Notes under the pieces: model-generated
The model's database searches: none
The model's input: only the letters and a program-made list of their open reading frames with translations
Told to the model about the DNA's origin: nothing
Translations under genes and position numbers: made by a program
Part shown: one piece after another, positions 16,605 to 32,176 of the stretch
Layout: each line of letters starts with the position of its first letter
How positions within the stretch are numbered: the first letter of the stretch is position 1
NCBI RefSeq assembly: GCF_005577435.1
Contig: NZ_CP040396.1
Location: 1,315,501-1,379,500 of the forward strand
Source: Paenibacillus algicola
Lineage (GTDB): Bacteria > Bacillota > Bacilli > Paenibacillales > Paenibacillaceae
Reading direction: 5' to 3'
DNA: 64,000 nt

Positions 16605-16814
16605 TTGAAGGGAAATGATCAACACAGCAAGTTCTTGTTAACCCACCGTGAGCGAGAAGTATTTGAGCTGCTGGTGCAGGACAAAACGACTCGCGACATC
16701 GCCGGGCAGTTGTTTATCAGCGAGAAAACGGTGCGAAACCATATTTCCAATGTTATGTGGTTTGAAACACACCCATCATTAAAGGCTAAAACCTTTGACT
16801 TCATTGGGTTTTAG
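16605..16814 (+). pseudogene. gerE: gerE 5' part, interrupted after codon 51
   Basis: The first 51 codons encode a LuxR-type HTH protein matching sporulation regulator GerE (LLTHREREVFELLVQDKTTR, then ISEKTVRNHISNVM). Translation starts at TTG, 8 nt after AAGGAGGGG. After VM the frame runs into foreign sequence and ends 18 residues later, so the product would lack the last helix used for dimerisation. The missing 23 codons and stop occur at 31069 and again at 32105. Joining them gives exactly 74 residues, the length of B. subtilis GerE, in frame. GerE is the last mother-cell regulator of coat genes. This is probably not a dead gene but one restored by DNA excision during sporulation. Confidence 0.92.
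16736..16772 (+). other. attL of the gerE intervening element
   Basis: The core 16736-16757 (AAACCATATTTCCAATG plus TTATG) is identical to 31047-31068 at the right junction, in direct orientation. It is followed by the element-side arm TGGTTTGAAACACAC (16758-16772). This arm is the inverted repeat of the arm at 31038-31052 with one mismatch in 15. The core codes for the end of the GerE recognition helix. Confidence 0.85.
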
Positions 16815-16968
16815 GTAATTTCAATGGATTGGAGAAACAGTTAGGCACTTAGTGAGGGGAGAAACAGACCTTACGAGGTGCTTTTTTTCACCGTGTACCA
16901 TACAAATGTGATAAAATGGGAACATATGATTGTATGAAAGGGACAAGTATTAGAGAGGTGAATGTACA

Positions 16969-17970
16969 ATGGTTAACCATACAGATATTTTGATATATCA
17001 GACTGAAGACGGGAATACCAAGATTGACGTGAAGTTGGAAAATGGAACAGTCTGGATGACTCAAAAGGCAATTGCGGAGTTGTACCAGACAAGCTCGCAA
17101 AACATCACTCTCCATATCAAGAATATATATGAAGAAGAGGAATTGTATTTTGAGTCAACTTGTAAGGAATACTTACAAGTTCAAATTGAAGGGTCAAGAA
17201 AAGTTGAACGCCGTGCAAAACATTATAATCTTGAAATGATAATCGCCATTGGCTATCGTGTTCGTTCTCATAGAGGTACGCAATTCAGACGTTGGGCAAC
17301 AGAGCGGCTAAACGAATACCTTGTCAAAGGATTTACAATGGACGATGAACGGTTGAAGGATATGCGTAATTTCGGTCAAGATTATTTTGATGAATTACTT
17401 GGTCGCATTCGTGACATTCGTGCATCGGAGAAAAGATTTTACCGTAAAATCACGGATATCTATGCTACGTCCATCGATTACGATTCACAAGCAGACTTGT
17501 CCAAAGATTTTTTCGCTACCGTTCAGAATAAACTGCATTTTGCTATTCATGGACATACAGCAGCTGAATTAATCGCAGACCGTGCCGATGCGGAGAAAGA
17601 CAATATGGGGCTAACAAATTGGAAGGGCGATAAAGTAAGAAAGTCCGATGTTACTATCGCAAAAAATTACTTGTCGGACAAGGAAATGCAGTCCTTGAAT
17701 CGTATTGTAACCATGTATCTGGACTATGCAGAAGATCAAGCGGAACGACAAAATCCAATGTTTATGAAGGATTGGATTGAAAAGTTGAATTCGTTCTTAA
17801 AGTTTAATGAGCGTGAGATTTTGACTAATGCAGGAAAAATTTCGCAAGAGGTTGCAGAGAAATTGGCTGCGGCTGAGTATGAAAAGTTCAATCAGCAGAG
17901 GCTGACTATTGAAGTGAACGATGATTTTGATGACTTTGTGAAGCAGAATCGATTGCATAGAAAACATTAA
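16969..17970 (+). CDS. RhuM-family protein
   Basis: A 333-residue protein recognised as the RhuM (virulence protein) family from its N-terminal pattern DILIYQTEDGNTKIDVKLEN, WMTQKAIAELY, NITLHIKNIYEEEEL and YNLEMIIAIGYRVRSHRGTQFRRWA. The N-terminal part resembles a Bro/KilA-N-type DNA-binding region with a predicted helix-turn-helix (MTQKAIAELYQTSSQNITLH). Length fits the family. Its biochemical role is unknown; members are common on genomic islands and near restriction systems. It is the first gene of the element, has a weak AGAGAGG ribosome binding site and its own terminator. It may be a stability or defence cargo gene. Confidence 0.85.
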   Translation: MVNHTDILIYQTEDGNTKIDVKLENGTVWMTQKAIAELYQTSSQNITLHIKNIYEEEELYFESTCKEYLQVQIEGSRKVERRAKHYNLEMIIAIGYRVRSHRGTQFRRWATERLNEYLVKGFTMDDERLKDMRNFGQDYFDELLGRIRDIRASEKRFYRKITDIYATSIDYDSQADLSKDFFATVQNKLHFAIHGHTAAELIADRADAEKDNMGLTNWKGDKVRKSDVTIAKNYLSDKEMQSLNRIVTMYLDYAEDQAERQNPMFMKDWIEKLNSFLKFNEREILTNAGKISQEVAEKLAAAEYEKFNQQRLTIEVNDDFDDFVKQNRLHRKH

Positions 17971-17979
17971 TTTATAGTG

Positions 17980-18018
17980 GGAGGAAAGGACATCAAACAG
18001 CCTTTCCTCCAGCTTTTT
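17980..18018 (+). terminator. Terminator after rhuM
   Basis: GGAGGAAAGG (17980-17989) pairs perfectly with CCTTTCCTCC (18001-18010), followed by AGC and a T run. Confidence 0.85.
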
Positions 18019-18166
18019 TAGTGCCTTTTTATAAGCTAACTCTCTTTCTGTCTCTTCACAGTTAAATCTTTGCAAGGCTAAAATCGCAGTGTTCTTTTAG
18101 TCCTCTGACCTCAGCGGTGGCATTAGCTCTTTATATTTAATCGGTTATTGTACAAGATAGATGCTA

Positions 18167-18175
18167 CATAAAATA
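18167..18175 (+). promoter_or_regulatory. Sigma-K-like -10 sequence (tentative)
   Basis: CATAAAATA matches the sigma-K -10 consensus CATAnnnTA. It lies 36 nt before the small ORF that precedes the recombinase. A convincing -35 at the right distance was not found (TGTACA at 18149-18154 is 12 nt away), so this is only suggestive of mother-cell expression. Confidence 0.35.
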
Positions 18176-18210
18176 AATAAACGATATACATGACGAGAGG
18201 AGAATGCCCG

Positions 18211-18381
18211 ATGTCAAGGGTTTTAAATAAAGCATATCGTATTCATCTTCAATCTGGACAAGGGAATCTCAATGAAATGATTGATGAACTTGCCAGACAG
18301 GTTGTTCGTAAAAATATAGATGAATTTCAAGCAAACAATTACCGTGCAAAAAAAATCACAGCTTTGGGACGTGCCGTTTAG
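18211..18381 (+). CDS. Small ORF before recombinase, possible directionality factor
   Basis: A 56-residue charged protein (starting MSRVLNKAYRIHLQSGQGNL, later DELARQVVRKNI and YRAKKITALGRAV). The start is 7 nt after GAGAGGAGA; an in-frame ATG seven codons upstream has no ribosome binding site. No family recognised. It sits directly before the recombinase in the same direction, with a hairpin between them. SPbeta of B. subtilis uses SprB, a protein of about this size, as the recombination directionality factor for excision at spsM. A similar role here is a hypothesis based on size and position only. Confidence 0.55.
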   Translation: MSRVLNKAYRIHLQSGQGNLNEMIDELARQVVRKNIDEFQANNYRAKKITALGRAV

Positions 18382-18410
18382 AAAGTAGCTGTTTATATAT
18401 TGGAACATTC

Positions 18411-18456
18411 AGCAATCCCTTTGGCTTGAGCTTGATTCGTCAGAGGGATTGCTTTT
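18411..18456 (+). terminator. Hairpin between small ORF and recombinase
   Basis: AGCAATCCCT (18411-18420) pairs perfectly with AGGGATTGCT (18444-18453), followed by a short T run, 22 nt before the recombinase start. It could be a terminator or attenuator, which would limit read-through into the recombinase gene. Confidence 0.65.
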
Positions 18457-18477
18457 ATGTAAGGGGAATGATTCAGT

Positions 18478-20076
18478 ATGACAAAAGCAGCGATATACGT
18501 TCGTGTCAGTACGACGAAGGACAGTCAGAAGGATAGCCCAGAACACCAGATTTCCGCATGCAAGCACTACGCAGAGGATATGGGCTGGGAGACAGGCGAG
18601 GACATCATTTATGAAGACAGAGAGTCAGGAGCAAACATTACCGACAGACAAGCGATTCAGCAGGTCGTTAGAGATGCACAGCGTGGTGCGTTTCAGGTTA
18701 TCATATTCGCCGCACTATCTCGTTTCGCGCGTGACATCGGGGATTCCATCAGCTTAAAACGGAAGATGGTCAATGCCTTAAATATCAGGCTTATTTCTAT
18801 AGATGACCATTATGATTCAGACCGAGACGATGAAATGTTATTTTCGATTATTTCCAGCGTCAACCAATCGGTGAGTGAACAAATTAGTCGCAGCTCACGC
18901 CGCGGCAAACGGGAATCAGCGCTAAAAGGAAACTTTACAGGCAGCCGCGCTCCTTACGGATATTATAGGGAAAATAGAAACGGATTAAAGGTGCTTGTAC
19001 CTGATGATCAGCAAACCGGAGTTGTGCGTACCATATTTCAGCTCTATACGGCGAATAAGATGGGCGAAAAAGCGATTGTCGAGTATCTGAACGATAAGGG
19101 TATTCCTTCGCCCAAGGATGGATTGTGGGGCACTACAACTATACAACGAATCCTTCAGAATGAGGCGTACATTGGGAAGAACCGTTCTTCAAAGTATGAA
19201 ACCAAGAAGGTCTACACCAACGTGAACGATACATCAGAAAGAAAAAAAGTATTGGTACAGCGACCGAAGAGTGAATGGCGGTATGCTAACAAGGTTGTCA
19301 CACACCAAGCGATTATTGACGAGGATACGTTTCAGTTAGCGCAAGCTTTGCGGCTTGAACGAGGTGGCGGTGAGCGAGGCGGCGTAAGGCAAAAAATCAA
19401 TGTCTTTGCAGGGATTATGAAATGTGCGCATTGTGGATCATCTGTGGTCAGCATGAAATCCAAAAGTAAAAAGACAGACCGTGATGAAAGAGAATACCGA
19501 TATCTAATCTGTTCCAGACGACGACGACTAGGTGATACGGGATGCAGCAATGATTTTTGGCTTCCCTATCATCCATTTCGAGATGAACTAATCGACACTT
19601 TATCTATTATGCTTAGGAACATAACCTCGGCGGAGGAATTGCTGGAGAAACACAAAGGACTCATTCAAATTAATCAATCAGACTTGGAAAGTGAAATGAA
19701 AAAGCTGCAGAAGCGAATGGCTGACAATCGCAAATGCCTATTTGAACTGCGACGTGAGAAAATGTCAGGTCAGTTCCACGATGAGGAACAATACAATATA
19801 GAAAAAGCGATATATGAAAAGGAAATTGTACAGTGCGAAAAAAGACTTGCGGAATTGACAGAAGAACAACGTAAGAAATCTGATTTAACCGAACTATATG
19901 AGCAAGTCATGGATATGTTGGATGAGCTGCTGGATTTGGATTTTGATTCATTCGATGAGATGCAGTTGATTCTGAAAAAGTTACTGTCTCAAATTAAAGT
20001 TAGCCGTGATGGTGAAATTCAGGTCGTTATGACATTCGGGCTTTCGTTACAAGAACCGGAAGGCGAGAAGAAGTAA
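18478..20076 (+). CDS. Large serine recombinase of the gerE element
   Basis: A 532-residue site-specific recombinase. The N-terminal resolvase domain has AAIYVRVSTTKD with the nucleophile Ser11 and the conserved LSRFARD block near residue 80. The recombinase domain (about 155-290) includes APYGYYRE and LNDKGIPSPKDG. A zinc-ribbon follows (Cys316, Cys319, Cys345, Cys356), then a coiled coil (about 370-480). Size and layout match SpoIVCA and SprA, the enzymes that excise skin and SPbeta. The start follows AAGGGG. It is the only recombinase seen in the interval, so it is the obvious candidate for integration and excision at gerE. Its 3' end abuts a remnant of the right element junction. Confidence 0.93.
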   Translation: MTKAAIYVRVSTTKDSQKDSPEHQISACKHYAEDMGWETGEDIIYEDRESGANITDRQAIQQVVRDAQRGAFQVIIFAALSRFARDIGDSISLKRKMVNALNIRLISIDDHYDSDRDDEMLFSIISSVNQSVSEQISRSSRRGKRESALKGNFTGSRAPYGYYRENRNGLKVLVPDDQQTGVVRTIFQLYTANKMGEKAIVEYLNDKGIPSPKDGLWGTTTIQRILQNEAYIGKNRSSKYETKKVYTNVNDTSERKKVLVQRPKSEWRYANKVVTHQAIIDEDTFQLAQALRLERGGGERGGVRQKINVFAGIMKCAHCGSSVVSMKSKSKKTDRDEREYRYLICSRRRRLGDTGCSNDFWLPYHPFRDELIDTLSIMLRNITSAEELLEKHKGLIQINQSDLESEMKKLQKRMADNRKCLFELRREKMSGQFHDEEQYNIEKAIYEKEIVQCEKRLAELTEEQRKKSDLTELYEQVMDMLDELLDLDFDSFDEMQLILKKLLSQIKVSRDGEIQVVMTFGLSLQEPEGEKK

Positions 20077-20131
20077 CATTATGCTGAAGGTGATGACCGG
20101 CCCTTCTCCGTGTGCTTCAAACCCCATCTCC
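20075..20131 (+). pseudogene. Remnant of lipoprotein gene joined to an att half-site
   Basis: 20075-20104 matches the lipoprotein gene at 31825-31854 with one mismatch (AACATTATGCTGAAGGTGAT and on). 20105-20131 then matches the attR2 left flank at 32069-32095 with one mismatch (including GTGTGCTTCAAACCCC). About 215 bp present between these parts in the intact copy are missing. This shows that the order recombinase-lipoprotein-attR once existed directly here, before the transporter cargo came to lie downstream. Confidence 0.75.
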
Positions 20132-20151
20132 CGGGAGATGGGGTTTGAAGC
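20110..20151. repeat. Perfect palindrome, att-like and terminator-like
   Basis: GCTTCAAACCCCATCTCCC (20114-20132) is followed directly by its exact complement (20133-20151). It lies between the convergent recombinase and response-regulator genes, so it can act as a hairpin terminator. The arms GTGTGCTTCAAACC and GGTTTGAAGC are separated by 18 bp, exactly the spacing of the arms in the reconstructed attP, so it also looks like a symmetric recombinase binding site. Confidence 0.8.
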
Positions 20152-20157
20152 AAGAGG

Positions 20158-21219
20158 TTATTCCTGTTCAAGAGAACCGTATGTCTTGCGATAGGCACTG
20201 GCTGACAGGCCGCAGTGCTTCTTGAACGTCCTCGCAAAATGAGGGTAATCGGCATAACCGACCTTCTGCGAAATTTCATAGGTTTTGAAGTGAGACTGCT
20301 GTAAGTACTTCATGGCGCGCTCCATTCGGTATCGGGTTAAATATTGAATGAATGGAACCCCCATTTCTTCACTGAAGCTCCGGCTCAGATAGGAGACAGA
20401 CACCCCCAGCTTGGCAGCCACGCTTTTAAGCGACAGGCTTTCATCCGGGTAACAGGCTTCCAAATGCGCTACGGCCTTGTCTACCACATGGCGGCTGCTC
20501 CAGCTTCTGGAGCCGCGAATCTCCTCCAACAGAGCCATTACACGCTGCTCAAACATGAATGGATGCTTAGATCCTTCCTGAAGGTCAGTATCATTCTCCG
20601 TGTCCTGGATTTTACGCGAGCTTTTTCGGGATATTTCCTGCTTCACGAAATGAAGCAGCTCCGAATACAGGGCGGGGGAGATTCCGGGCTGATGTGCTTC
20701 TTCCGCCCACGTCAGGGCACGAATCCGAACCAATTCCTCTTGAAGTCCCTCTTCATCCGTACTCCACAATAAATCGCATAGCCGCAAGCCATGCTCTTTG
20801 CACTGCCACACCCAATCAGGCCTCGGGCTTAAAGGAGCAGGCCGCCGGGCTTCCAGCTTGGCATATGTACGATCCAGCGCATCATAAAGCGATTCCACTT
20901 CTACCGGCTTCAGCAAATAATCAACGGCGCCCAGCTGCAAGGACTGTCTGGCATATTCAAATTCAGCATAGCCCGTCAGCAGAATGATTTCTGCCGGATC
21001 GCTGTTATCCTTCAGTGCCTTAATGAGCTGGAGTCCATCTATAACCGGCATGCGGATATCTGTAATCATAAGCGCGGCCTGATGCTGCCCCTGCAGATCT
21101 AAAGCCTCCCGGCCATTGCTGGCGATGCCGACAATATAGAAATGAGGATGGTCATTCACCAGCTTGGTCAGGCTGAGCTTGATCATACGTTCATCATCTA
21201 CCACAATGACAGAATACAT
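20158..21219 (-). CDS. AraC-type response regulator (YesN-like)
   Basis: A 353-residue protein. The receiver domain (residues 1-120) has VVDDE near the N-terminus and the phosphoacceptor Asp in ITDIRMPVIDG near residue 55, with a conserved Lys in LLKPVE. The C-terminal 100 residues are an AraC double HTH (LGVSVSYLSRSFSEEMG and KVGYADYPHFARTFKKHCGL). The start at MYSVIVVDDE overlaps the kinase stop (TAATG) and follows GGAGG by 7 nt. With the upstream kinase it forms a two-component system, divergently oriented from a sugar transporter that it probably controls. Confidence 0.92.
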   Translation of the reverse strand: MYSVIVVDDERMIKLSLTKLVNDHPHFYIVGIASNGREALDLQGQHQAALMITDIRMPVIDGLQLIKALKDNSDPAEIILLTGYAEFEYARQSLQLGAVDYLLKPVEVESLYDALDRTYAKLEARRPAPLSPRPDWVWQCKEHGLRLCDLLWSTDEEGLQEELVRIRALTWAEEAHQPGISPALYSELLHFVKQEISRKSSRKIQDTENDTDLQEGSKHPFMFEQRVMALLEEIRGSRSWSSRHVVDKAVAHLEACYPDESLSLKSVAAKLGVSVSYLSRSFSEEMGVPFIQYLTRYRMERAMKYLQQSHFKTYEISQKVGYADYPHFARTFKKHCGLSASAYRKTYGSLEQE

Positions 21220-23030
21220 TAGCATCCCTCCGGAACGTAATATAGTTGTTTATTCATAGGGAGGCGGAGTTCAACGGTGGTTCCCTCCTTCGAAGATTGA
21301 ATGAAGCGCAGTCCGTAAGGCGAGCCAAAGTGAAGTACAATCCGGGAATGCACATTCCACAACCCGATGGAAGCGTGAGCGAGTCGGCTTGAATCGGATG
21401 ATGAGGCCTTCTCGAATTGTTGATTAAGTGAATCCATTTTTTCCGGAGACATCCCATGCCCATGATCAGTAATGTGAACGCAATAGTGATTCTCTACGAC
21501 ACGGCCAGTAATAGCCAGGTAGCTAGGCGGAAGCATAGGCTTGTCATATCCATGCTTGAATGCATTTTCGACTAAAGGCTGCAGTGTGAATCGGGGAACC
21601 TTGACCTGCATAAGGTCATTGGGTTCCGCTTCAAGAACCGTTTTCAGCTCGGAATAGCGCTCCTTTTGAATAGAAAGGTATGTGGTTATATGTTGGAGCT
21701 CTTCCTCCAAAGATACGACGGCCGTGCCATCCTGGCTGTTATAGCGAAATAACCGGGCCAGTGAAGCTGTCATTTTGCTAATGGAGGTGTTGCCTTCCAG
21801 AATCGCATAAGAGTTAATGATCTCTAGCGAATTATATAAAAAGTGCGGATTAATCTGTGACTGCATCGCGAGCAGCCGGGAGTCCTTTTGTTGAATTTGC
21901 AGTTCCTTCTCCTGAAGCTGCTTCATGTAGATCACCTCGTTCTGCTGTTGTATCCGAGTGAGCATTTTATTAAAGCTGCGATTGAGGCTGCCGAGCTCGT
22001 CATTGCGCCGATCATCTGCGCGGGAGGTAAGGTCACCGTTCTCCGCCCGGTTCATATGATTCTTCAGGCGCAGGAGCGCCCGGGTCAAGGTCATAGAATA
22101 TCCTCCCACAAGAAGCAGGGCGAGCCCAATTAAAGAGAGCCCGACGATGACGGAAATGTTACGCTGCTGAATCAGAAGTGCGGTCATTTCTCGAATTGGA
22201 TAGTAGGAAAGTGTCGTCCAGCCGGTTGCGGTCGAGCGGTAATACACCGTAAGCGTCTGAACTCCCCGAATCTCTTCAAAAAAATATCCTTCGTAACTGC
22301 CATCAAGTCGCTGCGAAAGTGTAGCTGGAATCGGCTCCCCCCACTGCTGCTGATCAGGATGGTAAACATAACGATGTGAGGTATCCACAATTGATACCGG
22401 TGCTGAAGCGTCATCCTCTTCGTACTTGAAATTGCTGACGATCCGGGTAATCTCGGACAGATTTAGATCGAGCATCAGAACTCCCGCAGGTTGAAAATTA
22501 AGAGTACTGGCAATCAGTCGATATACCGAGATGACCGGGACTCCATGAACCCGGCTAATGCCTTCAATACCGAAACGGCCATGGGCTGGAGATAGCTGGA
22601 GGTAGGCTTGCGAGCGCTCCAACGAGTAGGCTGCACCCAGATTACTTGCCGAAATCTGATGAGTGTTTGTCATGATTGTATTATGTATATCCTTGCGTCC
22701 GGCATTTAAAGCAGGGAAGAGATCCTCTTGAATCTGCCGGGTCACGCTGAAGCGGTAATATTCGTCCAAGGGAGTAAGCTTTATAAATTTCTGAGTTAGG
22801 TGGTGGGTAAGAAAAGGCAGAGTCAGGTTTTCAAGGCCTTCCATATATGAGTCTAGACCACCGCTGATTTGACGCACAGCCTGCATCCCGGTATTGACGG
22901 CATTTTGCTCCATCAGCCTCATGGACTGATCGTACCAGAGCTTCCCAAGGATTAGAAAAGGAACGCAGATGAAAAAGAGAATCATGGAAAGAAGCTTCCT
23001 GCGGATCGTGAGCGGTACTATAATTTTCAT
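21219..23030 (-). CDS. Sensor histidine kinase (YesM-like)
   Basis: A 603-residue membrane kinase. It has an N-terminal membrane segment (about 14-30), an extracellular sensor domain (about 35-290), a second membrane segment (about 295-315, SVIVGLSLIGLALLLVGGYS), a HAMP region, a His_kinase domain with phosphoacceptor His in QINPHFLYNSLEI, and an HATPase with LVENAFKHG and HGHGMSPEK. This is the family typically paired with AraC-type regulators next to CUT1 sugar transporters in Paenibacillus. It probably senses extracellular oligosaccharide or the solute-binding protein. Its stop overlaps the regulator start. Confidence 0.93.
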   Translation of the reverse strand: MKIIVPLTIRRKLLSMILFFICVPFLILGKLWYDQSMRLMEQNAVNTGMQAVRQISGGLDSYMEGLENLTLPFLTHHLTQKFIKLTPLDEYYRFSVTRQIQEDLFPALNAGRKDIHNTIMTNTHQISASNLGAAYSLERSQAYLQLSPAHGRFGIEGISRVHGVPVISVYRLIASTLNFQPAGVLMLDLNLSEITRIVSNFKYEEDDASAPVSIVDTSHRYVYHPDQQQWGEPIPATLSQRLDGSYEGYFFEEIRGVQTLTVYYRSTATGWTTLSYYPIREMTALLIQQRNISVIVGLSLIGLALLLVGGYSMTLTRALLRLKNHMNRAENGDLTSRADDRRNDELGSLNRSFNKMLTRIQQQNEVIYMKQLQEKELQIQQKDSRLLAMQSQINPHFLYNSLEIINSYAILEGNTSISKMTASLARLFRYNSQDGTAVVSLEEELQHITTYLSIQKERYSELKTVLEAEPNDLMQVKVPRFTLQPLVENAFKHGYDKPMLPPSYLAITGRVVENHYCVHITDHGHGMSPEKMDSLNQQFEKASSSDSSRLAHASIGLWNVHSRIVLHFGSPYGLRFIQSSKEGTTVELRLPMNKQLYYVPEGC

Positions 23031-23250
23031 GGTTCACTCAACCCCAAATAAGAAATGACTGCCTGGATCACTGTAATTGTCATTTTATCACAGGGGATAA
23101 AGGAGTATAGATCAAAAACTCGAAGCGCTTACGATTCGAATAAAATACGACAAGTCGGACAATTATCATCATATTCAGGTAACAGAAGTGAAGGTAATAT
23201 GGTTGCATGACTTTCTAAAAATAAGATTTTGCGGGGGAGGAGGAGCAGAC

Positions 23251-24150
23251 ATGCAGAAAAGTTATATTCTCAGACATTGGGCTCTTTATTCAATGATTTT
23301 GCCTGGTGTGTTGTATTTTGTGGTCTTCAAATACATCCCCCTTCTGGGGAGTGTTATTGCATTTCAGGACTATAACGTGTTTAAAGGAATCCGGGAGAGT
23401 GCCTTCGTAGGCTTCAAGCACTTCCAGAACCTATTTGCCTATCCCGAATTTTATAGGGTATTGAAAAATACGATACTGATCAGTCTGTACAAAATTATAT
23501 TCGGGTTTCCGGCTCCGATTATTCTGGCGCTACTATTGAACGAAATCCGCAAAATGGCTTTTAAACGTACAATCCAAACGGTCATCTATCTGCCGCACTT
23601 TCTGTCTTGGGTTATCGTAGGTGGACTGGTCATTAATCTGCTGTCCCCTAATTACGGAATTGTAAATGAACTGCTACGTTATTTTGGACTTGAACCGATT
23701 TTTTTCCTGCAGGAGCCGGAATATTTTCGCTCAATCATTGTTCTCTCAGGTATTTGGAAGGAAGTTGGATGGAGTACTATTATTTTCCTTGCTGCCCTGG
23801 CCGGCGTGAATCCGGATCTGTACGAAGCCGCTGAAATGGATGGTGCGGGACGCCTTCGCAAAGCCATTAGCGTAACACTGCCTGCGATTATGCCTACCGT
23901 GGTAGTGCTGCTCCTGCTGAGAATTGGAGACTTTCTGGATCTAGGCTTTGAACAGGTATATATGCTGCTCAACCCGCTAGTAAAATCAACAGGAGAGATC
24001 ATTGATACCTATATTTATGAGGTCGGTCTGCTTGGAGCCCAATTCAGCTACACGACGGCTATCGGGATCTTCAAGTCCGTCGTCGGCTTAATCCTGATTG
24101 TTGGTGCCAATGAATTTAGCAAGCGTTACACGGGCCACTCCATTTATTGA
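23251..24150 (+). CDS. CUT1 ABC transporter permease (LplB-like)
   Basis: A 299-residue polytopic membrane protein with six predicted segments. The cytoplasmic EAA loop reads YEAAEMDGAGRLRKAISVTLP, diagnostic of the MalF-type permeases. The start is chosen at MQKSYIL, after GGGGAGGAGGAG; the longer frame from 23188 lacks this site. It forms the translocation channel with the second permease. The ATPase is absent from the cluster, as is normal for this family, which shares a common MsmX-like ATPase. It lies divergent from the two-component system. Confidence 0.93.
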   Translation: MQKSYILRHWALYSMILPGVLYFVVFKYIPLLGSVIAFQDYNVFKGIRESAFVGFKHFQNLFAYPEFYRVLKNTILISLYKIIFGFPAPIILALLLNEIRKMAFKRTIQTVIYLPHFLSWVIVGGLVINLLSPNYGIVNELLRYFGLEPIFFLQEPEYFRSIIVLSGIWKEVGWSTIIFLAALAGVNPDLYEAAEMDGAGRLRKAISVTLPAIMPTVVVLLLLRIGDFLDLGFEQVYMLLNPLVKSTGEIIDTYIYEVGLLGAQFSYTTAIGIFKSVVGLILIVGANEFSKRYTGHSIY

Positions 24151-24183
24151 TCATGATTCTCTAAGAAAAGGAGGCGATTCACC

Positions 24184-25053
24184 TTGAAGAAATCCAGGCA
24201 CTCAGGCAGTGCATTTGACCGGATCAATGGGCTATTTATGATATTGCTGTCAGCCAGCATGCTGTTTCCGTTCCTGTACATCGCCGCAGGCTCCCTGAGC
24301 AGTGGTACAGCCATTCTTCAAGGCCGGGTATCTATATTTCCTGTGGAATGGACATGGGTGAATTACCAAGCTGTGTTTCGGAATGCAGCCATCTGGAATT
24401 CCTTTGTGGTAACCGCCTTCATTACGGTTGTCGGCACCTTTTTTAACCTGCTGCTGACCTCGCTCATGGCTTACGGGCTTGCCCGCAAGGAACTGAGGGG
24501 ACGCACCTTGATCATGCTCTGTATTATTTTCACGATGATATTTCCAGCGCCGCTTATTCCTTCGTATTTGTTGGTTAAGTCGCTTGGTATGCTGAACACA
24601 CTGCAGGCTCTCATTGTTCCATCTGCCATCAGTGCATTTAACCTGATTATTATGATTTCTTTTTTCCGCAGCTTGCCTGAAGGCCTTCTTGAATCGGCTC
24701 GAATCGATGGGGCCGGGGAATACCGGACCTGGCTGAGCATCGCAATTCCTTTGTCCCTGCCTTCTATCACAACCATCGGCCTGTTTTATGCAGTCACACA
24801 TTGGAACTCCTATTTTGCAGCGATCATTTATATCCGGGATCCCAAGCTGTATCCGCTGCAGGTTAAGCTGAGGCAGCTGCTGGTGGAGAATGATGCAGAG
24901 CAAATGATGCAGGCGGTTGAGGTGAACTTATCCTCGCTGGAGGGGATCAAGATGGCTACGATTATCGTCGCTACGCTTCCGATTTTGTTTGTGTACCCGT
25001 TTATCCAGAAGCATTTTATTAAAGGCAGTATGCTGGGCTCTATAAAGGAGTAA
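24184..25053 (+). CDS. CUT1 ABC transporter permease (YtcP-like)
   Basis: A 289-residue MalG-type permease with six predicted membrane segments and the EAA loop ESARIDGAGEYRTWLSIAIP. The TTG start lies 9 nt after AAAGGAGG. The C-terminal KGSMLGSIKE is typical of the LplC/YtcP group. It pairs with the preceding permease. Substrate is probably an oligosaccharide; the neighbouring SGNH hydrolases suggest an acetylated one, which is inference. Confidence 0.93.
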   Translation: MKKSRHSGSAFDRINGLFMILLSASMLFPFLYIAAGSLSSGTAILQGRVSIFPVEWTWVNYQAVFRNAAIWNSFVVTAFITVVGTFFNLLLTSLMAYGLARKELRGRTLIMLCIIFTMIFPAPLIPSYLLVKSLGMLNTLQALIVPSAISAFNLIIMISFFRSLPEGLLESARIDGAGEYRTWLSIAIPLSLPSITTIGLFYAVTHWNSYFAAIIYIRDPKLYPLQVKLRQLLVENDAEQMMQAVEVNLSSLEGIKMATIIVATLPILFVYPFIQKHFIKGSMLGSIKE

Positions 25054-25102
25054 GGCCTGGTTTGATGCATACAAGCACAAGATGAAAAGGAGAGGGTTCT
25101 TT

Positions 25103-26677
25103 GTGAAAATTTCAAAAATTGCCAGTGCCGCTGCACTGTCTATGCTGTTGATCACAAGCGCGTGTACGAGCGGAACACAAAGCGGTACTGGTGCGCCGCC
25201 TAACACTGAAGGTCAAGGCAACACCCAAATCCAGACGCCGGAAGCAGCTCCGACCATTACACTGGGGGTTACTACGGCAGGCTCCCAGTATGTCGAAGGC
25301 TCAGCCAATATGAATGAGGATGTACATGTTGAGAAGCTGAGAGAGATGTCGGGCGTAGATGTGCAGCTAGAGCTGATTCCATACAACGATTACAAGCAGA
25401 ATATGACGCTGCTGTTTGCAGGCGGCGACATGCCGGATCTGCTGCAAACCGCTGGAGCCACCGCGCCGGAGATTGCCCCTGCCTTCGAAGCAGACGTCTT
25501 TATGCCGCTGAATGATCTTATTGATGAGCATGCTCCCAATTTAAAGAAGCATATACCACAAGAAGCATGGGATTCCGTGCGTGTCAGCAAAAACGGCGTC
25601 ATCTATGCAGTGCCTTCTATTAAGGTCAGCAACATTAATAATGTCACCTTCATGCGTAAGGATTGGCTGGATAAGATGAAACTGGAAGCACCGGAGACGG
25701 TAGAGGAGTATATCGAGGTACTGAAGGCCTTTCGCGATGGAGATCCAAACGGCAATGGAAGAAAGGATGAAATCCCGTACACGGCGAGAGCCAATTTCAC
25801 GTTCGGCGAAGCATTCTTCGGAGCTTTTGATGTCCCGATTGGAGGATGGCGTTATACCGATGGCAAGCTTCTGCCGAATTATGTAAGACCGGAAATGAAG
25901 GAAGCACTGGAGTTGTACCGCGAGCTGTATCAAGAAAAGCTGATCGACAATGAATTTTTCGTACAGCAGGGAAAGGATTGGGATGCAAAAATTAAGGGAC
26001 AGGCGAATGTAGGCATGTGGACACATCAGCCGCATTACCCGGATAAATGGCTCACGGAAGTGCAGCAGGGAGATCCCAACGCCGAGATCGTCATTATACC
26101 TGCTCCTAAAGGATCGAACGGTCAAGGCGGTGCTGCCTACGGCACAGATCCGGTCGGCGGTATGGTTTATATGATTCCACAGGGCAGCAAGGACCCCGTT
26201 GCAGCGATAAAATTCCTGGATTGGTTCTACAGTGACGAAGCCTTGACGTTCTTCTCGTTCGGCATTGAGGGACAGGATTATACGGTAGAGAACGGACAGA
26301 TCAAATATAAGTATCCTGTAACGCAGGAAGAAACCTATTTGCAGTCGATGAGGCAATACTGGCTTCGCCTGATCGGGCCGGACCCAATCGGAGATGAAGC
26401 ATTTATGAAGGAGAAGCCCAACGGACAGCTGGTTCTTGATGCACTGGCAGTAGCCGATGCCGAGGGGATTGTCGACGATGGTAACGGCATGCCGAACATG
26501 ACCACCTTGACCGAACGGCCGGAACTCGGAAGGAACGGTCTCTTTCTGGAGACGGCAGCCCGGATTATGACAGGTGAGGGAAGCCTTGATGAATTCGATG
26601 CTTTTGTCGAGGACTGGATGAAGCGTGGAGGCGACAAGCTGATTGAAGAAGCAACCGCATGGTATGAAAGTAAATAA
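25103..26677 (+). CDS. Extracellular solute-binding lipoprotein (LplA-like)
   Basis: A 524-residue lipoprotein. The signal peptide ends in a lipobox with ITSAC, the Cys near residue 21. The mature part is an extracellular solute-binding protein of family 1 (long form), with blocks LLFAGGDMPDLLQT, FRDGDPNGNGRKDEIPYTA and AAIKFLDWFYSDEALTFFSFGIEG. The GTG start is 10 nt after AAGGAG; an in-frame ATG seven codons upstream overlaps that site. It captures the substrate for the two permeases. The gene is followed by a stable hairpin. Confidence 0.92.
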   Translation: MKISKIASAAALSMLLITSACTSGTQSGTGAPPNTEGQGNTQIQTPEAAPTITLGVTTAGSQYVEGSANMNEDVHVEKLREMSGVDVQLELIPYNDYKQNMTLLFAGGDMPDLLQTAGATAPEIAPAFEADVFMPLNDLIDEHAPNLKKHIPQEAWDSVRVSKNGVIYAVPSIKVSNINNVTFMRKDWLDKMKLEAPETVEEYIEVLKAFRDGDPNGNGRKDEIPYTARANFTFGEAFFGAFDVPIGGWRYTDGKLLPNYVRPEMKEALELYRELYQEKLIDNEFFVQQGKDWDAKIKGQANVGMWTHQPHYPDKWLTEVQQGDPNAEIVIIPAPKGSNGQGGAAYGTDPVGGMVYMIPQGSKDPVAAIKFLDWFYSDEALTFFSFGIEGQDYTVENGQIKYKYPVTQEETYLQSMRQYWLRLIGPDPIGDEAFMKEKPNGQLVLDALAVADAEGIVDDGNGMPNMTTLTERPELGRNGLFLETAARIMTGEGSLDEFDAFVEDWMKRGGDKLIEEATAWYESK

Positions 26678-26685
26678 GACTTACT

Positions 26686-26712
26686 TCTAGGGTCCTCTCG
26701 AGGGACCCTAGA
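26686..26712 (+). terminator. Hairpin after solute-binding protein gene
   Basis: TCTAGGGTCC pairs perfectly with GGACCCTAGA around a 7-nt loop. No T run follows, so it may protect mRNA 3' ends or cause partial termination, giving more binding protein than downstream products. Confidence 0.5.
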
Positions 26713-26738
26713 GTCATAAACAGGAGTGATTTGGGGCT

Positions 26739-28604
26739 ATGGAGAGCACTCGGAATTTGGGTTTCCCGGTAAACCATACGTATCTGTACCAGTATGACTT
26801 TATCCCTTCCCGTGAAGGAGACGAGACCCTCGTCACTGTAACAAACGGAAATCCTGCTCGGCTATGTGTAGTCGATGTGCGCCAGTCAAAGCTACGAGGA
26901 AGCTATCCTTTGGAAGGCGCAGATGGGGCTATGGTGCTGGAGGCAGCAGGAGAAGACCGGGTTATCGCCGGCTCTTTCCCTAATGGGGAGCTTTATATCC
27001 TGCATCTGGAACAGGATGAGATTCAGCGGCTAACGGTGCACAGTGCCGGTCTGAGCTTTGTATATGCCGTCTGCATCGTGGGAGATGACTTGTATTTTGG
27101 AGGCTACCCGGGCTGTATATTGTACCGGATTCATCTGTCTACAGGTATTGTAAGTAAAGCTGCAGAGATAGATTCTAGAGAGATGTATCTGCGATCTATG
27201 CTGGAGGTCGACGGGGAGCTTTTTATCGGCTGCGGGGCTCACGTCCGATTATATCGCTACCAGCCCGCAGAGAAGTCCTGTATCGCTTTGGAATTAGGGG
27301 AAGAGATCGAAGGAAGCCCCGGGTTTGTAACGAATCTCAGGATATATAGAAACAGCATCGCAGCTAGTATTGAAGCGCTGGATATGGTCATTCTGTGTGA
27401 CCGCAGCTCTAACAGACTGATACGCGTGTTCAGAAACTTCTCGCAATTTATCGTTGTGAACGAGAAGCTATTTCTGTTTAATGCGGAAGGGACATACTAC
27501 TATCAGGAGGAAGAAGATCAGCTGACACACATGTCCGGAAGCTTCACTGCAGGATGGAAGGTAATGAGAGCGGCGAGGATGGATGAGGAGCATAAGCTGA
27601 CTGGCATAACCCGTCACGGAGAGCTTAGTATACTTTCTTTATCTACCGGGGCAAAAGAAATGCTGCAACTCCCGCTGCCAACAGCCCCTGCCTTGATTCA
27701 GACGATCCAGGAAGCCCCGACCGGCTGTATTTATATGAGCGGCTACCAGTGCGGGGGACTCTCAATCTATGATCCGGTTACTGGCAGAACTGCGGAGCAC
27801 AAGGGCATTGAACAGATTGATGGAATGGTGTTTACACCTGACAAAGCTTATTTTGGCGCTTATCCAGGAGCCTGCATTTACGAGTGGGATTACAGTGATG
27901 AAAAAGATCCTGAAGCCATGCCAAGGCTGCTGTTTCGTGTCGGCGAGCACCAAGACCGTCCTTTTGCAATGGCAGCACATGCAGAGTATCTCTTCGTGGG
28001 CACGATTCCGGATTATGGGAAAAGCGGGGGCGCGTTGACCGAATATGATACTGTCGGCAAGAAGCGCGTAACCTATCGGCATCTGATAGAAGCTCAAAGC
28101 ATTTCGGCATTAGCGATATCACCTGAGGCTCCCCGGTATCTGTACGGTGGAACAACGGTCTGGGGAGGTCTCGGTCAGACGCCGGTGGAGTCGGATGGAA
28201 AGCTTTTTATTTGGGATACGGTAAAGAAAAAGGTAGAGCACTCTTGGGTTCCGCTGCAGGGTGAGGACGGAATCGGGTGCTTAGCGTTTGACAGTGAAGG
28301 AGGTCTATGGGGCGTCACACGTGGAACATTGTTCCAGATCGATCCCTCAAGTGGCATACTGCTGAGAAGTAAAGTGTTGGTGGAAAAGGTGTGGCAGGGG
28401 CATTTTTGGAGAGGTCCATTTCTTCGGGTGCTCAGTGATGGGGATCTTATTGTTAATGTAGACCGTACCATATACCGCCTGAATAAGGATAGTCTTGAAG
28501 CTGCCGTAATATACCGGGACGCCAAGCTTTTAGCGGTAGATGAAGCGCGAGACACGCTTTATTTTGTAAGAAATCAGAGTTTGTTTAGTATACAACTTAC
28601 CTAG
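26739..28604 (+). CDS. Predicted beta-propeller protein in sugar-uptake cluster
   Basis: A 621-residue protein without signal peptide or membrane segment. It contains many repeats of about 45-55 residues of beta structure with Gly-rich turns (for example DLYFGGYPGCILYRIHLSTG, YMSGYQCGGLSIYDPVTGRT, KAYFGAYPGACIYEWDYSDE), typical of a WD40/PQQ-like beta-propeller. No catalytic motif was recognised. It lies between the transporter and two SGNH hydrolases in one direction. A sensing, scaffold or sugar-processing role is possible; some carbohydrate lyases and glycosidases have propeller folds. Function unknown. Confidence 0.65.
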   Translation: MESTRNLGFPVNHTYLYQYDFIPSREGDETLVTVTNGNPARLCVVDVRQSKLRGSYPLEGADGAMVLEAAGEDRVIAGSFPNGELYILHLEQDEIQRLTVHSAGLSFVYAVCIVGDDLYFGGYPGCILYRIHLSTGIVSKAAEIDSREMYLRSMLEVDGELFIGCGAHVRLYRYQPAEKSCIALELGEEIEGSPGFVTNLRIYRNSIAASIEALDMVILCDRSSNRLIRVFRNFSQFIVVNEKLFLFNAEGTYYYQEEEDQLTHMSGSFTAGWKVMRAARMDEEHKLTGITRHGELSILSLSTGAKEMLQLPLPTAPALIQTIQEAPTGCIYMSGYQCGGLSIYDPVTGRTAEHKGIEQIDGMVFTPDKAYFGAYPGACIYEWDYSDEKDPEAMPRLLFRVGEHQDRPFAMAAHAEYLFVGTIPDYGKSGGALTEYDTVGKKRVTYRHLIEAQSISALAISPEAPRYLYGGTTVWGGLGQTPVESDGKLFIWDTVKKKVEHSWVPLQGEDGIGCLAFDSEGGLWGVTRGTLFQIDPSSGILLRSKVLVEKVWQGHFWRGPFLRVLSDGDLIVNVDRTIYRLNKDSLEAAVIYRDAKLLAVDEARDTLYFVRNQSLFSIQLT

Positions 28605-28648
28605 CTTATGCATCCGTAATCACAACAAGAAGAAAGGGGTCAAATTAC

Positions 28649-29740
28649 ATGCACCATTCATACAACAACATGGCGAGAGAACAGAGTCAGAGACTTAGGG
28701 ATTGTACTGCAGGCAAGGTTCGTTGGTACTCTCCGCTGCAGGAGCCTTTTTATGTAGCCGGGCTGGGATGGTTCATCTCGGAGCAGAAGTATCGCAGGCT
28801 TCCTGTCCTTGCAGATGGCGTTGTACCGGAGGCGGTCGACAGGCTAGCTAACCATACCGCGGGCGGGCAGATCCGGTTCCGTACGGATTCTTCTCAATTC
28901 GTAGTTAGAGTAAGGCTGACAGGCAAGGCGCATCTGCCACATATGGCGTCCTCGGGTCAGTGCGGCGTGGACTGCTATGTTGGGGAGAACGGTGCTCTTA
29001 GATTTGTAAGCACGGCGCAATTTGAAGTTACCCAAGATGAATATGAAAGCACTCTATACATAGGATGGAAGAGGGAAATGCGCAGTGTCGTGCTGAACCT
29101 GCCGCTCTATCAAGGGGTTGAGGAGATCTGGATCGGTCTGGAAGAAGAGGCCTTGGTTCTGCCTCCTGCGGCATATCAGAGCAATCAGAAGGTGATATTT
29201 TATGGAACCTCTGTAACCCAAGGCGGTTGTGCGTCCCGTCCTGGTATGCTGCACACGAATATGTTAAGCCGGCACATCCCGCTAGAATTTCTGAATCTGG
29301 GTTTCTCAGGAAGCGGGAGAGGAGAGCCGGAGGTAATTGAGCTGATTGCAGGTATAAAGAACCCGGGCTGTATCATTCTCGATTATGAGGGGAACTGCAA
29401 ATCTACTGAACTATTTCGTCAAACTCTGCCGGAAAGTATTGCTATTTGCAGGGCCCGGCATCCATCTGTCCCAATTCTCATCTCTTCTCGTATGAAGTAC
29501 GCTCGTGAAGCAGAGCGGAAAGAACTGCGCAATACGAGGCTGGAGCGAAAGGAACTGGAGCAGGAACTGGTTCGAAAGCTGCGTCAGGAAGGTGACTTTC
29601 ATGTCTATTTCTTCGATGGATCTGATCTGCTCGGGCAGTACTACCAGGAATGTACGGTGGATGGAGCCCATCCCACCGATCTTGGTTATTGGCATTTGGC
29701 TAAAGGCTATGAGCCAGTTTTAAGAGCGCTGCTGCTATAG
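28649..29740 (+). CDS. Two-domain SGNH/GDSL hydrolase, copy 1
   Basis: A 363-residue protein with an N-terminal beta-sandwich region (about 30-180; GWFISEQKYRRLP, then the Gly-Val-Asp-Cys-Tyr segment QCGVDCY) and a C-terminal SGNH esterase domain: block I YGTSVTQGG with the nucleophile Ser, block II GFSGSGRGEPE, and block V DGAHPTDLGY with Asp and His. This matches the GxDLY plus lipase_GDSL_3 layout found in carbohydrate esterases. No signal peptide, so it acts in the cytoplasm, presumably deacetylating imported oligosaccharides. The following gene is a paralog. Confidence 0.85.
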   Translation: MHHSYNNMAREQSQRLRDCTAGKVRWYSPLQEPFYVAGLGWFISEQKYRRLPVLADGVVPEAVDRLANHTAGGQIRFRTDSSQFVVRVRLTGKAHLPHMASSGQCGVDCYVGENGALRFVSTAQFEVTQDEYESTLYIGWKREMRSVVLNLPLYQGVEEIWIGLEEEALVLPPAAYQSNQKVIFYGTSVTQGGCASRPGMLHTNMLSRHIPLEFLNLGFSGSGRGEPEVIELIAGIKNPGCIILDYEGNCKSTELFRQTLPESIAICRARHPSVPILISSRMKYAREAERKELRNTRLERKELEQELVRKLRQEGDFHVYFFDGSDLLGQYYQECTVDGAHPTDLGYWHLAKGYEPVLRALLL

Positions 29741-29784
29741 CGAACAGGCTTTAACGATGTAACGAAGGGAGCGATCATTTTTAT

Positions 29785-30879
29785 ATGTCCCGGAGCGACA
29801 ATGATATTACACGATATGACCCTGCTATGAAAGGGAGCAGCAGAGCTCATGATGATGTTGACTGGCTGTCACCGTTAGAGGAGCCATTTCAGGTGATAGG
29901 CTTGGCCTGGTTTACTGAGGAACGTCAATATCGAAGGCTCCCTGTTGTATTGGACAAGAAACTGGAGGAGGCTGTTGGTGACAGCGCTAACCATCTGTCT
30001 GGCGCTCAGATCCGTTTTCGCACAGACTCTGCCTCTCTATCGATTCGGGTCAGACTGAAAGGGAAGGCGGATATGGTGTATATGCCTGCGACAGGGCAAT
30101 GCGGGGTGGACTGCTACATTGGGGATGTTGACCGTATGTGGTATATGGCGACGACCAAGTATGACTGGATGCAATCTGAATATGAATCCGTACTGTATCA
30201 GAATAGGCCAAGTAGCATGGAGACAGTTACGCTGTATTTGCCTCTCTTTCAAGGTATAGACGAGCTATGGATAGGAGTAGATCAGGGAGCCTCGCTATCA
30301 GCTCCGCCACCGTTTGCTTCAAATCAGAAGATCCTGCTTTACGGAACCTCCATCACCCAGGGTGGCTATGCCTCCCGTCCTGCAATGGCATATCCCAATA
30401 TTCTGAGCCGAAGCATGCCGCTAGAGATTATCAATCTAAGCTTTGCGGGCAGCGGGAGGGCTGCGCCGGAAGCTGCCCAGCTTATCTCTACCATTTCCTG
30501 CCCGGCTTGCCTCATTCTTGATTATGAAGCTGATGGCGATCCAGAGGAGTTCCAGATCACACTTCCAGAGTTTATCACAGTGTACCGCACTGCTCATCCT
30601 GTAACTCCCATTCTTGTCGTTTCTCGGCTCCGTTACAGTCTAGAGACTCATGATCCTGCATGGATCCGCGAGAGAGAGGAGCAAGCAGCTTTTCAGCATA
30701 AGCTTGTCCGCAGACTTCGTGAGGAAGGGGATCGGCATATCTTTTTCTTTGACGGTTCCATTCTCCTGGGCAGTGTTGATTATGATGAATGCACGGTGGA
30801 CGGCAAACATCCGACCGACCTGGGCTTCCAGAGGATGGCGGAAGGTCTCCTCGGAACGATAAGGACGATCGTTTGGTAA
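29785..30879 (+). CDS. Two-domain SGNH/GDSL hydrolase, copy 2
   Basis: A 364-residue tandem paralog of the previous protein, with matching blocks: QCGVDCYIGDVD, LLYGTSITQGGYASRP (nucleophile Ser), FAGSGRAAPE and CTVDGKHPTDLGF (Asp and His). All catalytic residues are retained, so both copies are probably active, perhaps on differently acetylated sugars. There is no signal peptide. The ribosome binding site (AAGGGAG) is followed by a long spacer. It is the last gene of the transporter cluster; the next sequence is a decayed element junction. Confidence 0.85.
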   Translation: MSRSDNDITRYDPAMKGSSRAHDDVDWLSPLEEPFQVIGLAWFTEERQYRRLPVVLDKKLEEAVGDSANHLSGAQIRFRTDSASLSIRVRLKGKADMVYMPATGQCGVDCYIGDVDRMWYMATTKYDWMQSEYESVLYQNRPSSMETVTLYLPLFQGIDELWIGVDQGASLSAPPPFASNQKILLYGTSITQGGYASRPAMAYPNILSRSMPLEIINLSFAGSGRAAPEAAQLISTISCPACLILDYEADGDPEEFQITLPEFITVYRTAHPVTPILVVSRLRYSLETHDPAWIREREEQAAFQHKLVRRLREEGDRHIFFFDGSILLGSVDYDECTVDGKHPTDLGFQRMAEGLLGTIRTIVW

Positions 30880-30963
30880 TTTTTGAGTCCTGGCCCGCAT
30901 GGGTATGAATGAGATCTGCACCGAGAGGAGAATATTCATGCCTAAAGGTTCAGAGTCATCAGA

Positions 30964-31035
30964 CAAGGTGGATTACGAATATATGTCCTCCTATTATGGC
31001 CTATAGCCCTGGAGTCGAGGCAGTGAATGCCACAG
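30964..31035 (+). pseudogene. Decayed 3' part of the junction lipoprotein gene
   Basis: This stretch matches codons of the intact lipoprotein gene at 31895-31959 (including ATTACGAATATATGTCCTCC and GTGAATGCCACAG), with a small insertion that breaks the frame (a TAG appears). About 115 bp that separate this segment from the att site in the intact copy are missing. It is the left part of a duplicated lipoprotein-attR-gerE unit. Confidence 0.8.
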
Positions 31036-31037
31036 AG

Positions 31038-31068
31038 GTGTGCTTCAAACCATATTTCCAATGTTATG
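31038..31068 (+). other. attR1 of the gerE element
   Basis: The element-side arm GTGTGCTTCAAACCA (31038-31052) runs into the core 31047-31068, identical to the 22-bp core of attL. It is followed by gerE codons 52 onward. With attL it reconstructs an attP of 15-bp inverted arms (one mismatch) around a 16-bp centre. Confidence 0.85.
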
Positions 31069-31140
31069 CAAAAGCTGAACGTCAAAGGCCGTTCGCAAGC
31101 CGTCGTTGAACTGATCAAGCTGGGAGAGCTGAAAATCTGA
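31069..31140 (+). pseudogene. gerE: gerE 3' part, copy 1
   Basis: Twenty-three codons and a TGA encode QKLNVKGRSQAVVELIKLGE LKI, the last helix of GerE. The phase matches codon 51 of the 5' part at 16755-16757, so excision joins them in frame. It is followed by an intact terminator, which suggests it is (or was) the native gene end. Confidence 0.9.
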
Positions 31141-31168
31141 CGTCCTGCCGCATACACACCTTTGCGCG

Positions 31169-31205
31169 AAGCTCTCTTTTCCATCGGGAAAAGAGAGCTT
31201 TTTTG
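31169..31205 (+). terminator. gerE terminator, copy 1
   Basis: AAGCTCTCTTTTCC (31169-31182) pairs perfectly with 31187-31200 around ATCG, followed by a T run. Confidence 0.92.
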
Positions 31206-31455
31206 TGGTAGCGTGCCCAGCCAAGCACGCATCTTTAGCTTTACTTAGCCGAAGTACAGATTCATCATATGAGACCCGCAGACTATAACGGCTCAGACAG
31301 CTCGTATTGAACTAATCGCATATTAAAAAGAAACGGATAAAGAAAATATGCGATTGAGTGTATAGAATTAGGAGTGAAAAAGCCCTGCTTTTTTCTGCAT
31401 TGTATAGGCCGCAAAATAAACTAATATGTTTGACTAGAACTTCGTATTTTCGGAG

Positions 31456-31484
31456 TTTACCAGTCGACATTATCTGCATATAAT
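31456..31484 (+). promoter_or_regulatory. Putative sigma-A promoter for the lipoprotein
   Basis: TTTACC and TATAAT are separated by 17 bp, ending 48 nt before the lipoprotein start. The -10 is perfect; the -35 matches four of six positions. Confidence 0.5.
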
Positions 31485-31532
31485 ATTGACGAAATCAATC
31501 GAGTTTCTGTTTTGTTAGAAGGAGGTGGCTTT

Positions 31533-32033
31533 ATGGTAAAGAGAAGTATTTCACTTTTATTAATTTTTATATTGTTTTTAATCGGTTGTACTACCTCTAC
31601 AAATGTCAAAACAGAACAACTGACCGATTTTAAGAAGAGTGTTCGCACCGAATATAAAGAAATAGCTGATCTGAAAATCCAGATGGCACCGACCCAAGTA
31701 ACCTTTAATTACCATCTCAAAGAAAATACAGATAAAGAGGTCAGCGAGAACATTTTTGTTGAGACAAGAGAACTGATCCTTACCGAGGAGTTTAAAGAGA
31801 CTACAATAGAAGAGATCTATTTTAAACATTATGCTGAAGGTGATGACCAGCCCTACCCACACATTATTATTCGATTTCACAGTAATCCAAAAGGCAAGGC
31901 AGATTACGAATATATGTCCTCCTATTATGGCCCCGGGGTCGAGGGAGTGAATGCCACAGATCGATCAATAGATAATTATCAAACATGGTACTTTGATGAT
32001 TATGAAAAAACACCTGTAATTGTTACGCCGTAA
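31533..32033 (+). CDS. Small lipoprotein next to attR2
   Basis: A 166-residue protein with a signal peptide and lipobox LIGC (Cys near residue 19). The mature part is mixed alpha/beta and charged, ending in KTPVIVTP, and has no recognised domain. The start is 7 nt after AAGGAGG. Its base composition is A+T-richer than the flanking chromosome, like rhuM and the recombinase. Fragments of the same gene occur at 20075 and at 30964, always next to an att half-site, so it belongs to the right end of the ancestral element. Function unknown; it could modify the surface of the host cell. Confidence 0.75.
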   Translation: MVKRSISLLLIFILFLIGCTTSTNVKTEQLTDFKKSVRTEYKEIADLKIQMAPTQVTFNYHLKENTDKEVSENIFVETRELILTEEFKETTIEEIYFKHYAEGDDQPYPHIIIRFHSNPKGKADYEYMSSYYGPGVEGVNATDRSIDNYQTWYFDDYEKTPVIVTP

Positions 32034-32073
32034 AATGCAGTAAACTGATTAATCCTCCTTTTATATCTTCTCG

Positions 32074-32104
32074 GTGTGCTTCAAACCCCATCTCCAATGT
32101 TATG
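32074..32104 (+). other. attR2 of the gerE element
   Basis: GTGTGCTTCAAACC is followed by CCATCTCCAATGTTATG and then gerE codon 52. The left half differs from attL and attR1 (CCCATCT in place of CATATTT), while TCCAATGTTATG is shared. A left half that differs from gerE sequence is what a true P-by-B recombination product should have, so this may be the original right end. Confidence 0.8.
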
Positions 32105-32176
32105 CAAAAGCTGAACGTCAAAGGCCGTTCGCAAGCCGTCGTTGAACTGATCAAGCTGGGAGAGCTGAAAATCTGA
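32105..32176 (+). pseudogene. gerE: gerE 3' part, copy 2
   Basis: Identical in coding sequence to the copy at 31069-31140 and in the same phase. Excision between attL and attR2 would therefore give the same GerE protein. Sequence similarity continues through the terminator and ends near 32243. Confidence 0.9.

Follow-up and report, generated by a model that had tools for sequence, protein, structure and literature searches.

The 64,000-nucleotide stretch of Paenibacillus algicola DNA analysed here (contig NZ_CP040396.1, positions 1,315,501 to 1,379,500; hereafter the window) carries gerE, the gene for a regulator of late spore coat genes, in two parts set apart by an integrative element that measures 14.3 kb to the first, or 15.3 kb to the second, of two copies of the gene's 3' end. 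Judged from the sequence and its comparison with related loci, this element is very probably self-excising, leaving gerE in the sporulating mother cell and thereby rebuilding a 74-residue regulator. The locus is best read as one in which excision restores gerE, and this reading is supported, with both the excision and its timing deduced from the selection that acts on gerE and from gin, an element that splits the same gene in the Bacillus cereus group. The element interrupts a mother-cell sporulation gene whose frame is open when its parts are joined.

The initial annotation had described gerE as cut after codon 51, with the remaining codons and stop present twice downstream, and all three parts were found where it had placed them (Table 1). 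All 72 bp of the 3' part agree between its two copies. As claimed, the joining of 16605-16757 to 31069-31140 yields 74 residues followed by a stop, and the frame that is open before excision encodes 69 residues. The large serine recombinase reported inside the element is intact and contains Resolvase, Recombinase and zinc-ribbon domains, and the 22-bp core AAACCATATTTCCAATGTTATG recurs exactly at the left (attL, 16736-16757) and first right (attR1, 31047-31068) attachment sites, with a match of 19/22 (3 differences) at a third site (32083-32104). A second, intact gerE would have spoken against excision, and none was found in the closed, one-contig 4.48-Mb genome, where the next-best match besides the 3' copies is 50% identical and lies inside a 247-aa open frame. 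The lack of a second gene and the comparative conservation described below support the proposal, made with the annotation, that gerE is subject to a programmed rearrangement.

The attachment sites point to where the crossover would occur. Joining the inner half-sites of the element gives a deduced attP whose arms are inverted repeats about a central AA dinucleotide, with 18/25 symmetric positions when attR1 is used and 19/25 when the second right site (attR2) is used, versus only 8/25 for attB, a symmetry that by this measure exceeds chance. The AA constitutes the first two bases of the Asn49 codon of gerE and is located at 16749-16750, 31060-31061 and 32096-32097, so that two circles are possible, of 14,311 bp (attL x attR1) and 15,347 bp (attL x attR2). 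The same asymmetry holds in 49/49 pairs of attachment sites from related loci and the window, with the attP arms more palindromic than attB (12-22 versus 6-12 of 22), and a single crossover at the AA of codon 49 would fit all of the gerE splits.

When the genome collection was searched with 18 aligned integrases, 78 loci were retained, of which 55 (L065-L119; best-segment identity ≥30%) were defined as the integrase family and 23 (L120-L142) were classed as distant, including L140, which reaches 31% over part of the protein only. Within the 10 kb examined, a gerE half was found at 52 of the 55 family loci, in 12 named genera; the other three (L081, L101 and L109) meet contig ends, and gerE in these genomes breaks at contig ends. 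None of the 23 distant loci has a gerE half beside it, a weak control because nearly all of these are Clostridia. A search for GerE that covered 50 of the 55 family genomes found the full-length gene only in P. lutrae. In a sample of 392 genomes drawn evenly across the order, the integrase (E ≤ 1e-60) was found in 36 genomes (about 9%) and in 13 of 49 genera, and no GerE match (E ≤ 1e-16) reaches past residue 64 in any of the 36. A class-level sample, for which the integrase alone was counted, returned 18 of 398 genomes. Amongst 100 genomes of the genus, 90 have a full GerE, eight have the gene split at codon 51-52 (G000, the window genome, and G005, G009, G046, G057, G058, G066 and G092), one has it cut by contig ends (G021) and one has it decayed without such a split (G003). 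On these comparisons, the link between the integrase lineage and gerE across Bacilli is unexpectedly wide and strict.

Both sides of the split could be paired in 46 genomes, including the window genome, leaving out nine one-sided loci and P. lutrae with its intact gerE, and dropping sites without AA at the homologous position (second alignments of three loci and the remnant in P. lutrae). The composite GerE is open in all 46, with 26 residues from the AA to the stop on the 3' side in every genome and an open frame over the 48 codons taken for the 5' side, a choice that partly sets the composite length of 74. Over all genome pairs, many of which are saturated at silent sites, the ratio of nonsynonymous to synonymous differences per site (pN/pS) is 0.151 for the 5' part and 0.118 for the 3' part, and between the window and F. 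phaseoli there are 38 silent and six replacement changes over the 74 codons. A dead gene would not show such conservation, which suggests that split gerE is kept functional. The tails that an unexcised GerE would read from the element are not conserved, extending in the paired genomes from 3 to about 100 residues past residue 49. At 52 of the 55 family loci the integrase is full length. At two of the other three, in P. lemnae and P. lutrae, it is truncated and gerE is whole, the pattern expected if the loss of excision requires that gerE be repaired.

Excision is predicted to occur at the AA of codon 49 through recombination of attL with attR1 (or attR2), carried out by the integrase and a directionality factor, most likely the 56-aa product of orf56, with the recombination genes predicted to be expressed from a mother-cell promoter and the cargo (a two-component system, an ABC transporter and esterases) travelling with the element. 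The forespore would keep the element, which would therefore be inherited. The orf56 product belongs to a small-protein family encoded upstream of the integrase, recovered from a set of 203 preselected small frames with 25 matches in 24 of 56 upstream stretches (E ≤ 0.05); weaker matches occur in P. phyllosphaerae, Cohnella sp. GbtcB17, P. terrigena and phage Lily. It is similar in size to the known directionality factors GirX (42 aa; PMC5595907) and CD1234 (53 aa; PMC10747680), as these have been described. A comparison of orf56 with solved structures returned chance matches only. Ahead of orf56, several species share a block near TTATNGTACAAGA-N-CATAAAAT, and the CATA within it is taken here to be a sigma-E/K-like -10 element.

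The element is also mobile. The proportion of silent differences (pS) of the integrase gene between the window and P. sp. SY21-1 (0.26) or F. phaseoli (0.39) is below that of gerE (0.80 and 0.76), and the element has therefore moved between hosts; between the window and C. terricola, P. fonticola or P. sp. GM2, both genes are near silent saturation. The best 10 phage matches to the window integrase are all phages of Paenibacillus larvae, with up to 48% identity, and a 46-base attP consensus matches 19 phage records, again all of P. larvae. In phage Lily, the integrase gene is immediately followed by an attP that shares the arms and the AA centre, and in phage Xenia the match falls at 38408-38446. 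In strain B-3650, phage Xeni_IDv2 has been described as integrated in gerE, with the junction at base 38,418 of the phage (PMC12453123), a position that would fall within the Xenia match, assuming that the two isolates share coordinates.

Several observations weigh against programmed excision as the explanation. Since the integrase has moved between hosts, part of its spread would reflect mobility instead of a common programme. The role of orf56 as directionality factor is that of a candidate, based on position and conservation, and no orf56-like frame is among the matches listed for the small P. nasutitermitis element, nor among those listed for the element of the WH4 metagenome-assembled genome (MAG). 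Against mononucleotide shuffles, the weak sigma-E/K-like motif attains p ≤ 0.05 in just 10 of 25 upstream stretches, either of the two attR sites in the window may be the partner of attL, and P. cisolokensis, in which the integrase is frameshifted and gerE nevertheless split, does not fit.

That last genome would be at home if the insertion were a dead end, with gerE a pseudogene and sporulation poor or GerE-less, and it could be added that 10 of the 100 genus genomes are without a full-length GerE and that gerE of G003 decayed without such a split. This is nonetheless very unlikely, given halves that are open and conserved in all 46 paired genomes at a pN/pS of 0.12-0.15 and an integrase that is full length at 52 of 55 loci. 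The truncated, 69-residue product might itself be a functional regulator that makes excision unnecessary, as its frame is indeed open, but this is scarcely credible when the element-read tails vary as they do and a comparable truncated GerE of B. cereus has been described as inactive (PMC5595907).

The element could alternatively leave at random and at a low level, as ordinary mobile islands do and with no sporulation programme, in which case gerE would be restored in those cells only. The related integrases of P. larvae phages belong to temperate phages, and the window integrase gene has been horizontally transferred, both of which would suit such behaviour. Purifying selection on gerE in the split genomes argues the other way, as does the sporulation-specific excision measured for gin (PMC5595907), and the motif upstream of orf56, weak as it is, is mother-cell-like; random excision is thus judged unlikely, and programmed excision that rebuilds gerE remains the preferred explanation.

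Extra gerE 3' copies occur in the window genome, G057, G058, P. lemnae, P. terrae, B. sp. FJAT-26390 and P. lutrae. The copies of the window and of P. lemnae are nearly identical or better, with flanks that diverge just past the terminator, while one copy has decayed in each of G058 and G056 and G072 holds a pair of whole gerE-like genes, of which one contains a stop. In P. terrae, two P arms of different types (assigned by eye) look as if two different elements had held gerE in turn; between its two 3' copies lies a RhuM gene that shares 82% identity with the window's (L110, 8738). Such copies look like scars of earlier elements, and the second copy in the window would have been left by a previous element of this kind. 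Tandem-integration models were dropped because attB x attP integration makes no copy of the gene end. A putative repair of gerE beside the remnant, to which P. lemnae and P. lutrae point and which would cure a lost excision and reopen the site, fits better. At another locus of the window genome (G000:C1:1543299-1548200; L178, 1118-1584 and 5219-5685), sigK is present at full length and its 3' part recurs 4.1 kb downstream as a 468-bp copy of 98% identity, the same pattern of a whole gene with an extra 3' end as gerE in P. lemnae, and perhaps the scar of a skin-like element.

The features of the element are collected in Table 1. Among nine of its proteins compared with PHROGs, the integrase (phrog_95 integrase, E 1e-106) is the only clear phage function, and a phage origin of the element was rejected; among the 10 plasmid matches listed, the best is 28% identical. 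Residue S11 of the integrase, presumably the catalytic serine, is invariant among 18 aligned relatives. The integrase part has a G+C content of 0.41, the cargo one of 0.49 and the stretch between the 3' copies one of 0.38, versus 0.56 and 0.52 in the flanks. The cargo operon also adjoins the intact gerE of P. lemnae, where a relative of the 165-aa gene is present as well, and the gerE element of P. allorhizosphaerae carries a transporter and two-component set related to the cargo of the window. A perfect palindrome with attP-like arms and CG at its centre follows just behind the integrase gene; the stretch before it (within 20077-20151) resembles, by eye, part of the 165-aa gene.

Table 1. Features of the split gerE and its element (positions in the window; aa, amino acids).
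Feature	Position	Strand	Remarks
gerE 5' part	16605..16757	+	codons 1-51, TTG start
Open frame before excision	16605..16814	+	69 residues: 51 gerE codons and 18 codons of foreign sequence
attL	16724..16775	+	gerE half B, AA 16749-16750, element half P'
RhuM-family protein gene	16969..17970	+	PF13310
Predicted promoter, block upstream of orf56	18145..18174	+	sigma-E/K-like -10 CATAAAAT at 18167-18174
orf56	18211..18381	+	56 aa, candidate recombination directionality factor
Large serine integrase	18478..20076	+	532 aa, intact; PF00239, PF07508 and PF13408 over cut-off
Perfect palindrome	20114..20151	.	18-bp arms, attP-like; centre CG (20132-20133); just 3' of integrase
AraC-type response regulator	20158..21225	-	cargo
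Sensor histidine kinase	21219..23030	-	cargo
ATP-binding cassette (ABC) transporter permease	23188..24150	+	cargo; PF00528
ABC transporter permease	24184..25053	+	cargo; PF00528
Extracellular solute-binding protein	25082..26677	+	cargo
621-aa protein	26739..28604	+	cargo; without Pfam match
SGNH/GDSL-type esterase	28649..29740	+	cargo; PF14606, PF14607
Second SGNH/GDSL-type esterase	29785..30879	+	cargo
attR1	31035..31085	+	element half P, AA 31060-31061, gerE half B'
gerE 3' part, first copy	31069..31140	+	codons 52-74 and stop
Lipoprotein-like gene	31536..32033	+	165 aa; assigned by eye, without Pfam match; between the two gerE 3' copies
attR2	32071..32121	+	AA 32096-32097
gerE 3' part, second copy	32105..32176	+	identical to first copy

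Beyond the window, several loci differ in their arrangement. In P. selenitireducens (G105, C12:326652-349451), gerE is apparently in three pieces and would therefore have received two insertions in one 74-codon gene. The gerE element of Cohnella sp. GbtcB17 (L095, 7790-13522) seems tandemly duplicated, with the integrase, a frame of 173 aa and an orf56-like one of 60 aa each listed twice at equal lengths. The smallest element read, of 2,580 bp, is that of P. terrigena, for which the frames listed are the integrase, a 47-aa orf56-like frame, a 49-aa frame, a DUF1360 gene antisense to the integrase (L080, 9043-9393) and one other antisense frame. The integrases of Mesobacillus subterraneus and a Metabacillus MAG at first seemed interrupted, and an intron was considered and rejected, as there was no Rfam match and a partial N-terminal copy precedes a full-length open gene in both (L086, 10001-12145; L089, 10001-12137). 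The GerE of L084 (recorded as 'Paenibacillus sp. FSL R5-0490') resembles Bacillaceae sequences, and the record name may be wrong for that reason.

Taken across genomes, it seems on balance likely that in spore-forming Bacilli gerE acts as a permanent docking site, repeatedly made dependent on excision by one integrase lineage that travels on islands, 2.6-kb elements and infectious phages, and that loss of the integrase leads to a mended gerE and a reopened site, with the extra 3' ends and their terminators and the stacked copies as the fossil record. If this is true, the one gerE case in the literature searched, gin in the B. cereus group, becomes a lineage-wide rule, about 9% of the order-sample genomes (36/392) have this regulator only in pieces and would need a DNA rearrangement for it, and phage lysogeny is linked to spore quality. 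The 46 genomes with both attachment sites around one shared target would provide a resource, a small-protein family is named as candidate directionality factors, and such split gerE genes are probably not pseudogenes, a caution for annotation.

The idea of a gerE rebuilt by excision is not new, because gin, as described, splits gerE of B. cereus ATCC10987 and is excised during sporulation by GirC and GirX (PMC5595907). The initial annotation named sigK with skin and spsM with SPbeta as precedents and did not name gin, the closest one. In the literature searched, with most subscription papers outside the search, gin is the only gerE element studied as such, Xeni_IDv2 appears as a side result and no survey was found. 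The insertion point in gerE is common to gin and the window element (residues 47-49, with cleavage predicted at the AA within the Asn codon), and both combine a serine recombinase with a 74-aa composite. As described, gin has a small directionality factor, for which orf56 is the candidate counterpart in the window, and no phage genes. In contrast, gin (28.6 kb) has other cargo and three serine recombinases, girA and girB together and girC apart (PMC5595907), versus one recognised among the window-element proteins scanned, and the window has two gerE 3' copies. A gin-like layout occurs in G057, G058 and G092 (L045, L044 and L043), whose elements each hold, in addition to the family integrase, a neighbouring pair of further serine recombinases of 493 and 537 aa. 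As to kinship with GirC, no B. cereus name is among the 120 matches listed of 269 and of 221, many of which are nameless. New relative to gin are the tie of an integrase family to gerE, the shared crossover, the phage attP, the candidate directionality factor and the probable 3' scars.

In the mother cell of B. subtilis, a serine recombinase restores the sigK gene that skin interrupts. Among proteins of solved structure, the best relative of the window integrase is YokA (E 2e-15), which we take to be SprA, the SPbeta integrase. SPbeta has been reported to interrupt spsM, a sporulation gene that a serine recombinase makes whole in the mother cell (PMC4191935). The window element shares with skin and SPbeta an interrupted sporulation gene and a serine recombinase, and differs in its target gene and from their prophage or defective prophage content. 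The temperate phages of P. larvae (Lily, Xenia and others) share with it a related integrase, the attP arms and the AA centre, and are complete phages, whereas the window element has the integrase alone as a clear phage function among the proteins scanned.

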